From Candidatus Woesearchaeota archaeon (GTDB taxonomy: Archaea; Nanobdellota; Nanobdellia; Woesearchaeales; GW2011-AR4): a stretch of 64,000 nucleotides of DNA. The stretch is taken from positions 128,206 to 192,205 of the forward strand of contig JACPBQ010000002.1 in NCBI GenBank assembly GCA_016180235.1. Reading direction: 5' to 3'. The position numbers and the translations under genes are program-made. Shown here piece by piece: positions 59,900 through 64,000 of the stretch; position 1 is the first letter of the stretch; each line of letters begins with the position of its first letter. The notes beneath the pieces were generated by a model. The model searched no databases, was not told the DNA's origin, and worked only from the letters and a program-made list of their open reading frames with translations.

Positions 59900-60532
59900 T
59901 TAAGATTGTCTAACAGAACCAAACTCCTCAAAGCTCCCGCACCTCAAAAAAGGATTGTTCTCTTTCTCATGCTTTATTGTAGAATGCTGAATAGAGCCAT
60001 AATCATGCCCCGGATAGACTTTAATGTTTTCATCCATGTCCTTAAGCCTCTGCAGACTTTCCCACTGCTTTTTTATATCTCCCCCGCGCATATCCACTCT
60101 TCCGCAGCCCTCCACAAACAAAGTATCACCAGTAATAAGCTTATCAGTGCCTATTAAAAAACAAACACAGCTGGGCTTATGCCCGGGAGTATGCAAAACG
60201 CTTATTTTTATTTTGCCTACATCTATTTCGTCCCCTTCGTCTATGGTTTTTATCTTTTTAATGCCTAAATTCCTGATGTCTTTTTCCCCGTTTTTATGGA
60301 CATAAACAGCTGCATTGGTAATATCAAATATTTCCTTTACGCCTTCTATATGGTCAAAATCAGCGTGGGTTATGAGGATTTTATTCATTTTCAGGCTGTG
60401 TTTTTTGGCTATATTAAGGATTTTGCTGAGTTCCCATGCCGGATCAACCACAGCAGCCTCTTTTGTCTTTTCATCTCCGATAACATAGGCAAAATTCTGC
60501 ATCTGCCCGACAGGAATCTGCTCGAAAATCAT
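59900..60532 (-). CDS. Glyoxalase II-like MBL-fold hydrolase
   Basis: 'ITHADFDHIEG', 'VLHTPGHKPSCVCFLI', 'LITGDTLFVEGCGRVD', 'VYPGHDYG'. Confidence 0.88.
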   Translation of the reverse strand: MIFEQIPVGQMQNFAYVIGDEKTKEAAVVDPAWELSKILNIAKKHSLKMNKILITHADFDHIEGVKEIFDITNAAVYVHKNGEKDIRNLGIKKIKTIDEGDEIDVGKIKISVLHTPGHKPSCVCFLIGTDKLITGDTLFVEGCGRVDMRGGDIKKQWESLQRLKDMDENIKVYPGHDYGSIQHSTIKHEKENNPFLRCGSFEEFGSVRQS

Positions 60533-60635
60533 TTTCAGTAAATTTTGGTTTTATCCAATGCCAACAATTATTTGTTAATTCGTTTTTTGATTTCACTCTT
60601 TATCTCATTGTGCACTAAAATCAAAATAATAATTA

Positions 60636-60677
60636 CCTGCGTTTTTGTTTTCAGTAGTTGTATAGCAAAAACGCCGG
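60636..60677 (-). repeat. Hairpin-element copy C (within 60533-60775, minus strand)
   Basis: Reverse complement CCGGCGTTTTTGC TATACAACTACTGAAAA CAAAAACGCAGG. Confidence 0.75.
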
Positions 60678-60775
60678 CTAAGATTTTTTGAATTTTTATT
60701 GCCTTTTTTTATAATTTGCAATTAATATTTATCTTAATCAAATAGTTGTGAATTCAGTTGTGAGTTTTATTGTTT

Positions 60776-61501
60776 TTAGATTTTCCTGACAAAGCTCAAA
60801 AACCCTGAATGCCCTATAGCCTGCGACCTTGGCCTGACTTTCCTCTCCTCAACTTCCCATTCCCTTTCAATGATTTCAGAAGTCTTGATGTATGCGAAAT
60901 TCTCATTCTTCCTGATTTCATTGACAAAATCCATAACCTGCGGGATTGTAGGGCTGTATGAAACCAAAAAGCCTCCGGCTTTGAGCGATTTTTCCGCGCT
61001 TTTCAGGGCTTTCCACGGCTCAGGCAAATCCAATGTTACCAAATCAACATTCTTCTCATCAATCCCGTTATAGATATCCTCGTTTTTTATTTTTATATTT
61101 TTAAGGCTTAGAAATTTGATATTGCCCTCGACTATTTTGATGAAGTCCTCTCTTAGCTCGTATGTAACCACTTCCTTTGCAATATTGGCCAAAAAGCAGG
61201 CCAAAGCTCCAGAGCCGGCACCGGCATCCACAACCTTGCTTTTATTGTTCACTCCGGTCTCGGAAACTATCAGGCCGATATCCTTCAGGGGGATAATCTG
61301 CGCGCCCCTCTTGATTTTCCTGTACAGATCAATGAAACTCGGCTCAAAAACAGAAAATTCCCTGCCTGTGTTTGTCTTGATTTTTCCTTTTTTTGCTTTC
61401 AGGCCTTCTTTTTTGAAGAAGCCGAATTTGGTATGAAAATCACTGCCGGGATCCCTGACTAAGAATTTGCTGCCCTGCCTGTCCATCAGAATTTTTGCCA
61501 T
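60776..61501 (-). CDS. trmI: tRNA (adenine-N1)-methyltransferase, TrmI family
   Basis: 'GAQIIPLKDIGLIVSETGV...VVDAGAGSGALACFLA', 'LVTLDLPEPWKAL'; likely start MAKILMDRQG at 61501 rather than the longer ORF-track start. Confidence 0.85.
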   Translation of the reverse strand: MAKILMDRQGSKFLVRDPGSDFHTKFGFFKKEGLKAKKGKIKTNTGREFSVFEPSFIDLYRKIKRGAQIIPLKDIGLIVSETGVNNKSKVVDAGAGSGALACFLANIAKEVVTYELREDFIKIVEGNIKFLSLKNIKIKNEDIYNGIDEKNVDLVTLDLPEPWKALKSAEKSLKAGGFLVSYSPTIPQVMDFVNEIRKNENFAYIKTSEIIEREWEVEERKVRPRSQAIGHSGFLSFVRKI

Positions 61502-61577
61502 TATTCTCCAGAATCCGCTGCAATTTAAAAACATTTTTATATCATTAATAATAAAAATAAGCATATAAAAGGGTATT

Positions 61578-61667
61578 ATGGCAAAAAAGTCAAGGAAAAA
61601 AGGCAAAACCCCGAAAAAAAGCTCAAATAAAAAAACATCAAAGCCGAAAGTATGCGAGTTTTGCTGA
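61578..61667 (+). CDS. 29-aa basic peptide ending CEFC
   Basis: MAKKSRKKGKTPKKSSNKKTSKPKVCEFC; stop just before the AGGT of the next gene. Confidence 0.45.
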   Translation: MAKKSRKKGKTPKKSSNKKTSKPKVCEFC

Positions 61668-61681
61668 AAAGAGGTAAATAG

Positions 61682-62512
61682 GTGATGTTCAGGAAAAAGG
61701 TTTTTCTAATTGTCAGTATATTATTGCTATTGCTCTTTTCTATTGCTTACGCCCATGAAGAGGAAGAAATCCATGACGAAATCTCCGTAGATGCAGAAAG
61801 CCTCAAGTCAGCATCAATAAAATATATAAAAATTGCTTCATTTATCTCTATTTTTCTGATTATTGTTTCCCTTTATATCAAAGGCAAAAATGAAAAAACA
61901 AAATGGCTTTTATTTTTGGGAATAGCTGTCTCTATTGCGGCCTCGACTGCCTACCTTGCTTATTCTACAGTCTACCTAAACCTTGTTTCTGAAACACAGG
62001 GCCCAGTGCATTGGCATGCAGACTATGAGATATGGGTATGCGGCAAGCAAGTTGAGCTTGCCGGGCCAAAAGGCCTCTCGAACAGGATAGGAAGTCCTCT
62101 GTTCCACGACCATGGGGATAACAGGATACATGTGGAAGGTGTTGTAGCAGACACAAGAAATGTTGACTTGCATAGCTTCTTTGAGACTGTAGGCGGCAAT
62201 TTGGATGAAGATATATTGGAAATCCCGACAGAAAACGAAGTTATAAAAGTAAAAAATGATGATTCATGCAATGGGGAAGAGGCAAAGCTGCAGGCTTTTG
62301 TTTATAACGTGGCTAACCCGGATGAAAACAAAAACTGGATTTTTAACCAGAAAAAAATAGATAATTTTCCTGAATATGTTTTGTCTCCTCACTCAAATGT
62401 GCCGCCAGGAGACTGCATAATAATTGAATTTTCAGAGGAAAAGGAAAAAACAGGGCATATTTGTGCCACATACAAAGCAGCAACTGAAAGAGGTGAGCTG
62501 ATTGGCAGTTGA
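61682..62512 (+). CDS. Membrane protein with extracytoplasmic His/Cys-containing domain
   Basis: N-terminal signal/TM; 'GPVHWHADYEIWVCGKQ', 'FHDHGDNRIHVEG'. Confidence 0.65.
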   Translation: MMFRKKVFLIVSILLLLLFSIAYAHEEEEIHDEISVDAESLKSASIKYIKIASFISIFLIIVSLYIKGKNEKTKWLLFLGIAVSIAASTAYLAYSTVYLNLVSETQGPVHWHADYEIWVCGKQVELAGPKGLSNRIGSPLFHDHGDNRIHVEGVVADTRNVDLHSFFETVGGNLDEDILEIPTENEVIKVKNDDSCNGEEAKLQAFVYNVANPDENKNWIFNQKKIDNFPEYVLSPHSNVPPGDCIIIEFSEEKEKTGHICATYKAATERGELIGS

Positions 62513-63212
62513 AGCTTACCTCCCATCTCTGGTAACAGTAGTAACGACAGCCGCTATTGATTCAATCAATCCATGTGCTATCGGCGTATTGATATTGATG
62601 GTTTCTGTCATGCTTGCCGGGAAGCAGTCGACCAAAAGGATGCTTATGCTTGGAAGCCTTTATGTGCTGTCCGTGCTTGTAGTCTACCTCCTGGCCGGTC
62701 TTGGACTAATGTATTACCTGTCTACATTGCCATTGTACCTTGCAGAATACATCTCAATAGCAGTTGGAATCCTTATAATACTTGCCGGCCTTCTGGAAAT
62801 AAAGGACTATTTCTGGTATGGAAGGTGGTTTTCATTGTCAATACCATATGCGGTTTCAAAAAAAATACACAAATACTCGTCAAAGACCACAATCCTCGGG
62901 GTTATATTCCTGGGGGCTTTTGTCTCTGCAGTAGAGTTGCCATGCACTGGCGCCCCTTATCTGGCTATAATAACCTTATTATCCCAAAATTTTGACTTTG
63001 CCGCATTTTTATTGTTGGTTTTATACAACATTATTTTTGTTGCTCCACTGATAATAATTTTGCTGATGGTGGCATCAGGAGTAAAGCTTTATGAGATAAA
63101 AAAATGGAAGCAGGGAGCAAGGCCTTACATGAGGTTATTGATAGGCTTGTTGCTGGTAGGCTTGGGATGGCTGTTGATGCTTATAGCTAACGGCACCATA
63201 AATCTGGGGTAA
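62502..63212 (+). CDS. CcdA/DsbD-like thiol transport membrane protein
   Basis: 'SINPCAIGVLILMVSVMLAG' and 'VELPCTGAPYLAIITLLS' paired Cys-Pro motifs; 6 TM. Confidence 0.8.
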   Translation: MAVEAYLPSLVTVVTTAAIDSINPCAIGVLILMVSVMLAGKQSTKRMLMLGSLYVLSVLVVYLLAGLGLMYYLSTLPLYLAEYISIAVGILIILAGLLEIKDYFWYGRWFSLSIPYAVSKKIHKYSSKTTILGVIFLGAFVSAVELPCTGAPYLAIITLLSQNFDFAAFLLLVLYNIIFVAPLIIILLMVASGVKLYEIKKWKQGARPYMRLLIGLLLVGLGWLLMLIANGTINLG

Positions 63213-63216
63213 AAAG

Positions 63217-63516
63217 ATGAAAAAAGCAAAAGAAGGGAAGATATGCAAATACTGCATTGTGAAAAGAAAGGGCCATACGGAGGAATTTGACGAAAGAAAG
63301 GTTTATGCAAGCTGTTATGCTGCCTGCTTAAACGCGCAGATAAGGCATGCAAAAGCAGAGAAAATCTGCGAGAAAGTTTCGAGGGAGCTTAAGGCATGGG
63401 CAATAAAAAAGAAATATGCAGACTCAAAGGAGATTTTCAAAAAAGTGGCAGCTGCTATGAAAAAGCATGACGAGAATGCGGCTTTCATGTACGAGACTCA
63501 TAGGGATATTTCTTAA
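63217..63516 (+). CDS. ATP-cone domain protein
   Basis: 'VKRKGHTEEFDERKVYASCYAACLNA'. Confidence 0.75.
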   Translation: MKKAKEGKICKYCIVKRKGHTEEFDERKVYASCYAACLNAQIRHAKAEKICEKVSRELKAWAIKKKYADSKEIFKKVAAAMKKHDENAAFMYETHRDIS

Positions 63517-63524
63517 AGGAAAAA

Positions 63525-63677
63525 AGCCCCTGACGAGACATGCAGAAAAACTGTGTTTTTAACGCAGTTTTAAGTTTTGCACTCGCGACCTTTGCCTTTT
63601 AGGTTTAGGCCAACATAGTACCAAGGCTTCGCGGATATTTTTGGTATCTAACGCAATAGCTACTATGCTACAGGGGC
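63525..63677 (-). tRNA. tRNA-Thr(GGT) with three predicted introns (63628-63649, 63598-63618, 63539-63575)
   Basis: Manual fold of spliced product: GCCCCTG TA GCA..TGC G TTGCC TTGGTAA GGCAA AGGTC GCGAG TGCAAAT CTCGT CAGGGGC T. Confidence 0.8.
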
Positions 63678-63754
63678 ATAATAATCTGTAACTCAAGCTG
63701 TTTTAAAAATCTTTTCTATATTGTTAAATCTAAGAATATTATTGAAAATAAAAG

Positions 63755-63951
63755 TGCGGGGGATGGGATTTGAACCCACGAATCCACTAAGGAACAGGAT
63801 ATCTTCTTTACACAGAAGTGTTCCATTGTAGACTTAAGTCCTGCGCGTTTGGTCGGAAAACGGAGTTTTACGACCTCGAAAATCTCCGATTTCCCATTGG
63901 CCAGGCTTCGCTCTAAGGATTCCAAAGCCATTGCTTATAGATTACCCCCGC
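63755..63951 (-). tRNA. tRNA-Leu(TAA) with three predicted introns (about 63912-63942, 63849-63896, 63801-63832)
   Basis: Spliced: GCGGGGGTAGCGAAGCCTGGCCAAACGCGCAGGACTTAAGATCCTGTTCCTTAGTGGATTCGTGGGTTCAAATCCCATCCCCCGC A; class II variable arm TCC/GGA. Confidence 0.78.
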
Positions 63952-64000
63952 AAATTGCCCGGCATGGAAAAAGAAAAGAAAACCCTATTTAAACGTTGCT

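Follow-up and report, generated by a model that had tools for sequence, protein, structure and literature searches.

A tRNA-Thr(GGU) gene with three predicted introns in a Woesearchaeota genome and a dispersed family of T-loop introns in its order

Nanoarchaeum equitans has both split and intron-containing tRNAs, together with an (alpha-beta)2 splicing endonuclease (EndA). Large-scale transposition of tRNA introns has been described in Thermoproteales, with up to three introns per tRNA and with 59/60 among the listed sites (Fujishima et al. 2010, as summarised in PMC4033280 and PMC4090602). According to these summaries, similar introns reside there in different tRNA species, including at non-canonical positions, as they do in the case reported here. 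Our case lies in another phylum and differs from the Thermoproteales, as described, in that one sequence and structure family is concentrated at 59/60, with two hairpins whose loops are complementary, so far in a single order of Woesearchaeota; this distinction is drawn between descriptions, not sequences. In the Asgard Atabeyarchaeia and Freyarchaeia, introns interrupt 92–95% of tRNA genes and, as a further likeness, more than half of the tRNA genes have several introns, often at non-canonical positions (PMC11291895). They belong to another lineage, and the accessible part of that paper describes no dispersed T-loop family. In the red alga Cyanidioschyzon merolae, tRNA-Ile(UAU) likewise has three introns, located in its D-, anticodon and T-arms, and so one of them in the T-arm; this is a eukaryote, and the accessible part of the report claims no dispersed intron family (PMC9602550).

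The first-pass annotation of our locus had treated several introns per tRNA as known mainly from Thermoproteales and a few other lineages. This framing is outdated: multi-intron genes are the majority in some Asgard genomes, on the accessible text of PMC11291895, and T-loop introns are common in the order studied here. The new part is the dispersed T-loop intron family, intron transposition and multi-intron tRNAs being already known from Thermoproteales and Asgard archaea. In a full-text literature search on tRNA introns in Woesearchaeota and DPANN, with subscription papers outside its scope, we found no description of such a family and no report of an intron invasion centred on the T-loop.

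The window analysed here is a stretch of 64,000 nucleotides (G000:C5:128206-192205) from a 1.04 Mb assembly that is 81% complete. A methyltransferase encoded in it, which we take to be of the TrmI type, has its closest named relatives mostly among Candidatus Woesearchaeota metagenome genomes (53–81% identical). As the first-pass annotation had proposed, the window holds a 153-nt tRNA-Thr(GGU) gene on the minus strand, with the acceptor GCCCCTG/CAGGGGC, the anticodon and the discriminator T all present in the sequence (Table 1). Removal of three predicted introns leaves 73 nt, GCCCCTGTAGCATAGTAGCTATTGCGTTGCCTTGGTAAGGCAAAGGTCGCGAGTGCAAATCTCGTCAGGGGCT, in which the cloverleaf stems are all complete and the anticodon is GGU. 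The box upstream of the gene is likely its archaeal promoter, and a similar box, TTTTAAAAAC, is found upstream of tRNA-Thr in relatives. A 99-aa ORF on the plus strand (63217-63516), presumably an ATP-cone domain protein, converges on the gene and stops 8 nt short of the tRNA 3' end.

Table 1. Positions in the window of the tRNA-Thr(GGU) gene, its parts and neighbouring features.
Feature	Position	Strand	Remarks
tRNA-Thr(GGU) gene, 153-nt precursor, three predicted introns	63525..63677	minus	sequence, folding and ARAGORN
Exon A, tRNA positions 1-28 (acceptor 5' strand, D-arm, 26-28)	63650..63677	minus	positions 1-26 identical to uninterrupted L039
Intron 1, site 28/29, 22 nt, relaxed BHB	63628..63649	minus	also in G001 and several other families
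Exon B, positions 29-37, anticodon GGT	63619..63627	minus	
Intron 2, site 37/38 (canonical), 21 nt, BHB	63598..63618	minus	
Exon C, positions 38-59 (anticodon 3' stem, variable AGGTC, T-stem 5', T-loop TGCAAA)	63576..63597	minus	
Intron 3, site 59/60 (T-loop), 37 nt, strict BHB	63539..63575	minus	homologues in G006 and G042 by blastn
Exon D, positions 60-73 (T-stem 3', acceptor 3' strand, discriminator T)	63525..63538	minus	
TATA/BRE-like box AGATTTTTAAAACAGCT	63698..63714	minus	~20-37 nt upstream of position 1, read from sequence
tRNA-Leu(UAA), 197 nt, at least three introns (9/10, D-loop 3' side, 37/38)	63755..63951	minus	directly upstream of tRNA-Thr(GGU)
48-nt D-arm insertion of tRNA-Leu(UAA)	63849..63900	minus	4-nt ambiguity, CCAA at both ends

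ARAGORN and Rfam found no tRNA in the raw window, Rfam gave no gathering-level match there to an intron or other RNA family, and a permissive Rfam scan of positions 60000-64000 returned only chance matches and a weak tRNA match to the neighbouring gene. An HgcG match over the 5' half of the gene was rejected as chance (12 bits against a gathering threshold of 77). ARAGORN also reports no gene in the 153-nt precursor, and calls the spliced form as tRNA-Thr(ggt); random triple cuts of the same lengths as the introns yielded any tRNA in 8 of 2000 trials. The precursor folds at -52.2 kcal/mol, 4.6 standard deviations better than its shuffles (-35.1 ± 3.7 kcal/mol). Furthermore, the spliced tRNA matches an uninterrupted tRNA-Thr(GGU) of the same order (L039) at 66 of 73 positions, and the seven differences consist of three compensated anticodon-stem pairs and T-loop position 59. 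The three proposed junctions are thus borne out by the ARAGORN call on the spliced form and by relatives with and without each intron. A split or permuted tRNA was rejected, the exons all being contiguous and in order. At the level of sequence comparison and predicted folding, a genuine tRNA-Thr(GGU) gene with three BHB-type introns is confirmed.

The junctions differ in how closely they follow the BHB motif. The T-loop intron had been described as near-textbook with a 59/60 junction, and indeed all elements of a strict BHB are present (h GCGAG/CTCGT, H TGCA/TGCA, bulges AA^A and TG^T). The 37/38 intron is looser, as noted earlier, with one mismatch in its 4-bp helix TTGG/CCTA. For the 28/29 intron the proposed BHB held in part: the inner helix H (TGCG/CGCG) and the bulges (5' TT^A, 3' AA^G) are there, but the outer helix is absent, so that the motif is a relaxed one. 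In relatives the 28/29 motif similarly has an inner helix TGCG/CGCR, 3-nt bulges and no outer helix.

Intact tRNA-Thr(CGU) and tRNA-Thr(UGU) genes are present in the host genome. The first-pass annotation had held that an uninterrupted tRNA-Thr(GGU) elsewhere in the genome would count against the locus; no second tRNA-Thr(GGU) was found in the 81% complete assembly. Only 10 genes of this genome lie above the cut-off of the Rfam tRNA model, which fits many of its tRNAs being interrupted. An intact-T-loop search, read by eye, brought up further interrupted tRNAs, namely tRNA-Leu(UAA), tRNA-Ser(UGA) with a broken T-arm, and an apparent multi-intron tRNA-Arg. The T-arm insertion of tRNA-Ser(UGA) (L144, G000:C6:23200-23900) is long, about 85 nt, has no clear BHB, and is possibly a nested or double intron.

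The splicing endonuclease, which had been suggested as informative, is represented by one PF01974 (EndA) gene in the host genome, a 192-aa ORF (E=2.7e-28) that keeps the Y, H and K residues. Its nearest solved relative is the catalytic subunit of the N. equitans enzyme (3iey_A, E=9e-39). Our case differs from N. equitans in that the tRNA gene is contiguous, the EndA has no counterpart of the loop insertion in that catalytic subunit, and no second EndA subunit was detected in the host genome. In genomes of the host's family we find a single clear EndA gene or none, apart from two in G031, and nowhere a clear second type of subunit. Relaxed substrates have been linked to EndA loop insertions (PMC12397907). 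With neither the N. equitans loop insertion nor a second subunit found, it is not assured that the host EndA cleaves the relaxed 28/29 motif.

We searched 119 related genomes with the 153-nt gene by blastn, and this survey, which the first-pass annotation had proposed, recovered both uninterrupted and partly interrupted orthologues. tRNA-Thr(GGU) is uninterrupted in G111 (L039) and G007 (L050), has the 37/38 intron only in G002, and carries the 28/29 and 37/38 introns without the T-loop intron in the same-genus G001 and in G031, G032, G014, G021, G025 and G009. Among the tRNA-Thr(GGU) genes compared, all three introns occur together in the host genome. The 28/29 intron is also present in other families (G061, G087, G088 and G096). 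Closely similar homologues of the T-loop intron were found in tRNA-Thr(UGU) of G042, from another family, and tRNA-Thr(CGU) of G006, from another genus; its presence is patchy, and it is absent from G001 and most of the host's family. Most genomes surveyed are fragmented, incomplete assemblies, and the named relatives are metagenome assemblies.

A covariance model built from the T-loop introns of G000, G006 and G042 (R1) revealed that many tRNAs of the order have an interrupted T-arm, and 103 candidate loci were collected. Most of these carry one element of about 46 nt, TTCAAA ^ TGWRAAACTGYGTTTYWCA-CYCAG-AAAAACGCAGTTTTTC-TGAATG ^ T. A further model from 36 family members (R2) matched, at E<=1e-5, at least 80 places in at least 49 of 359 genomes of the order (at least 35 of 222 genera), lower bounds given that 14 candidates were scored per genome; two of the 80 places (G096, G009) lie outside any recognisable tRNA. 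At the same threshold R2 gave no match outside the order among 380 sampled genomes of the phylum. The window copy, a training member of both models (R1 E=3.1e-19, R2 E=8.7e-9), is a shortened variant with an incomplete hairpin 1 and is among the weaker R2 matches. Counted only from ARAGORN calls without further introns, as isotype calls made with the intron option are partly unreliable, at least 13 isotypes carry a T-loop intron (Thr, Val, Asn, Cys, Glu, Gln, Ser, Gly, Phe, Pro, Trp, Ile and Leu). One genome, G358, has eight family introns in different isotypes.

The 36-sequence alignment supports a family fold made of the T-stem, a splice helix, hairpin 1, hairpin 2 and pairs between the two loops. 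Standard pairs make up 93.0% of this fold compared with 75.3% in shuffles, and two-sided changes are seen in 19 of 27 pairs compared with 14.0 in shuffles; none of 500 shuffles reached either observed value. Slid structures are 34–52% paired, a control that favours the fold since the structure was derived from the aligned sequences themselves. Across the family cells the T-stem is 100% paired and the splice helix 98.6%, the latter with the variants UUCA/UGAA, UGCA/UGCA and UUCG/CGAA, in which the 3' end of the intron covaries with tRNA positions 54-57. Hairpin 1 varies pairwise (U-A, G-C, A-U), and the two hairpin loops are mostly complementary (CUGUG/CGCAG, CUCCG/CGGAG, CAGAG/CUCUG). In the two-hairpin form, covariation extends to the outer arms of hairpin 1. 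Because an alternative long hairpin, strand 1 with strand 2, is also 93% paired, the loops may kiss or the arms exchange, and the two modelled folds may interconvert.

Intron cores of 40 nt are identical (40/40) between tRNA-Thr(UGU) of G042 and tRNA-Val(GAC) of G354, which belong to two different families; at the 3' end one base differs (C or A), and it pairs with exon base 55 (G or U). The T-stems flanking near-identical introns differ (GGGAG, CCCGG, CTGAG), making long conversion tracts unlikely for such pairs. Of the 44 introns that share their genome with at least one other, 14 have their most similar intron in the same genome, compared with 1.7 by label shuffles (maximum 8 in 1000). As marks of transposed introns we thus find near-identical introns in different tRNAs as well as relatives in which the same site is empty (G001, G007, G111 and others). 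Two-hairpin introns of like style also occur at 37/38, in tRNA-Ile of G130 and tRNA-Asn of G184. The D-arm insertion of the tRNA-Leu(UAA) next to our gene, absent from all relatives compared, has two hairpins with complementary loops (CGGAG/CTCCG) and resembles the T-loop family; tRNA-Leu and tRNA-Thr genes share a contig, often close together, in several family members. We regard these off-site introns as leads, given that a model of the intron core only (R3, below) also matches palindromes outside tRNAs.

We consider it very probable that this is a working tRNA-Thr(GGU) gene from which EndA removes three introns, the T-loop intron being a recent arrival from the dispersed family. The transcript would be cut at three BHB-type sites and then religated, the 28/29 and 37/38 introns would be older residents, and from the sequences we infer both splicing in the cell and copying of introns from tRNA to tRNA. 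The T-arm would form the exon side of the splice site, where the perfect 5-bp T-stem would always supply the outer helix and the 3' end of the intron itself (UGAA) would pair with the near-universal T-loop bases 54-57 (UUCA). A new insertion would in this way bring its own strict BHB and be spliced out. An intron ending in UGAA-NN should thus be spliceable from nearly any tRNA, which could explain why one element is tolerated in many isotypes. Copies could move by reverse splicing, by recombination or by short conversion, each of which is possible.

The T-loop of this gene has one feature that bears on whether it is intact. The G18-U55 contact is nearly universal in tRNA. In tRNA-Thr and some tRNA-Val of the order (window, L003, L039, L050, L073, L111) we observe A18 with G55 and no G18-U55, and G19-C56 is kept; pseudouridine 55 is thus impossible in these tRNAs. 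Of 132 tRNAs parsed, a sample biased to tRNA-Thr, 85 have GG with U55 and 43 have no GG with G55, and two apparent GG/G55 exceptions have their GG elsewhere in the D-loop. Because G55 is also found in tRNA-Thr(UGU) of the same genome and in many tRNA-Thr of the order, we do not read it as decay.

This G55 would otherwise be one argument that the locus is a decaying pseudogene broken by junk, another tRNA-Thr(GGU) doing the work, and a second copy could be missing from the incomplete assembly. We give this reading very little credence: the spliced stems are intact, the anticodon-stem changes are compensated, G55 in intact tRNA-Thr of the order occurs together with D-loop A18, no other tRNA-Thr(GGU) was found in the assembly, and a TATA-like box lies upstream. 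It also seems improbable that the T-loop introns are ancient and immobile, passed on vertically and retained because the intron RNA has a role of its own (a guide or protein-binding RNA, for instance), with their similarity reflecting constraint. Orthologous descent would not lead one to expect identical cores in different tRNAs and families or introns of unrelated tRNAs that cluster by genome, and presence is patchy even between members of one genus; these weigh against this reading despite the strong conservation and covariation of the two-hairpin fold with its complementary loops, and the limitation of the family, as far as searched, to one order.

The route of spread is a separate matter, compatible with the explanation we prefer. 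Gene conversion alone at similar T-arms, without any transposition chemistry of the intron's own, is possible but doubtful; tRNA genes are most similar to one another in the T-arm and introns within one genome resemble each other, but the T-stem differences beside near-identical introns would force tracts to end within a few bases, and the similar introns at 37/38 and in the D-arm sit where T-arm homology is absent. A reading of the T-loop intron as a selfish RNA, a protein-free mobile intron that exploits the tRNA splicing machinery, seems unlikely to us; here the excised RNA (a kissing two-hairpin, likely circular) would re-enter tRNAs by a reversed EndA and ligase reaction, docking at the T-loop UUCA, and become fixed through reverse transcription or recombination.

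If the T-loop intron reached this gene recently from a dispersed family, as we favour, the roughly 80 insertions of one element would be apparently recent gains, with empty sites in near relatives where examined, and the long-standing question of how tRNA introns multiply in archaea can be tested directly on so dense a set of gains. T-loop introns also hide genes from the standard finder: ARAGORN detected 3 of the 103 loci unspliced and 93 once the T-loop intron was removed, compared with 0–2 when the cut was moved 8 to 40 nt upstream and 3–11 when it was moved 8 to 12 nt downstream. Such hidden genes are one reason why the tRNA sets of these small-genome archaea seem incomplete, and completeness estimates by tRNA counts, as well as claims of missing tRNAs in such archaea, need rechecking.

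A model of the intron core only (R3) also matches AT-rich palindromic pairs outside recognisable tRNA genes and is too unspecific, so that the intergenic intron copies it suggested are unproven. Among its matches are dispersed repeats of G281 (L252-L258), which lie outside recognisable tRNAs, form paired short hairpins, have 40-nt cores identical at three loci and at two loci, and are possibly a structured RNA or REP-like element. There was also no sign of a viral carrier: an exact intron 17-mer in viral contigs came down to two loci, with no tRNA around the match. In G211:C23 (L073) a tRNA-Val-like copy that carries the T-loop intron and is partial or disrupted has an intact tRNA-Val(GAC) immediately upstream. 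Finally, T-loop introns of other sequence are found in tRNA-Leu of G001 (L220, ~39 nt) and G030 (L221, ~18 nt), and in the host's family 59/60 is a general intron hot spot, beyond the two-hairpin element.
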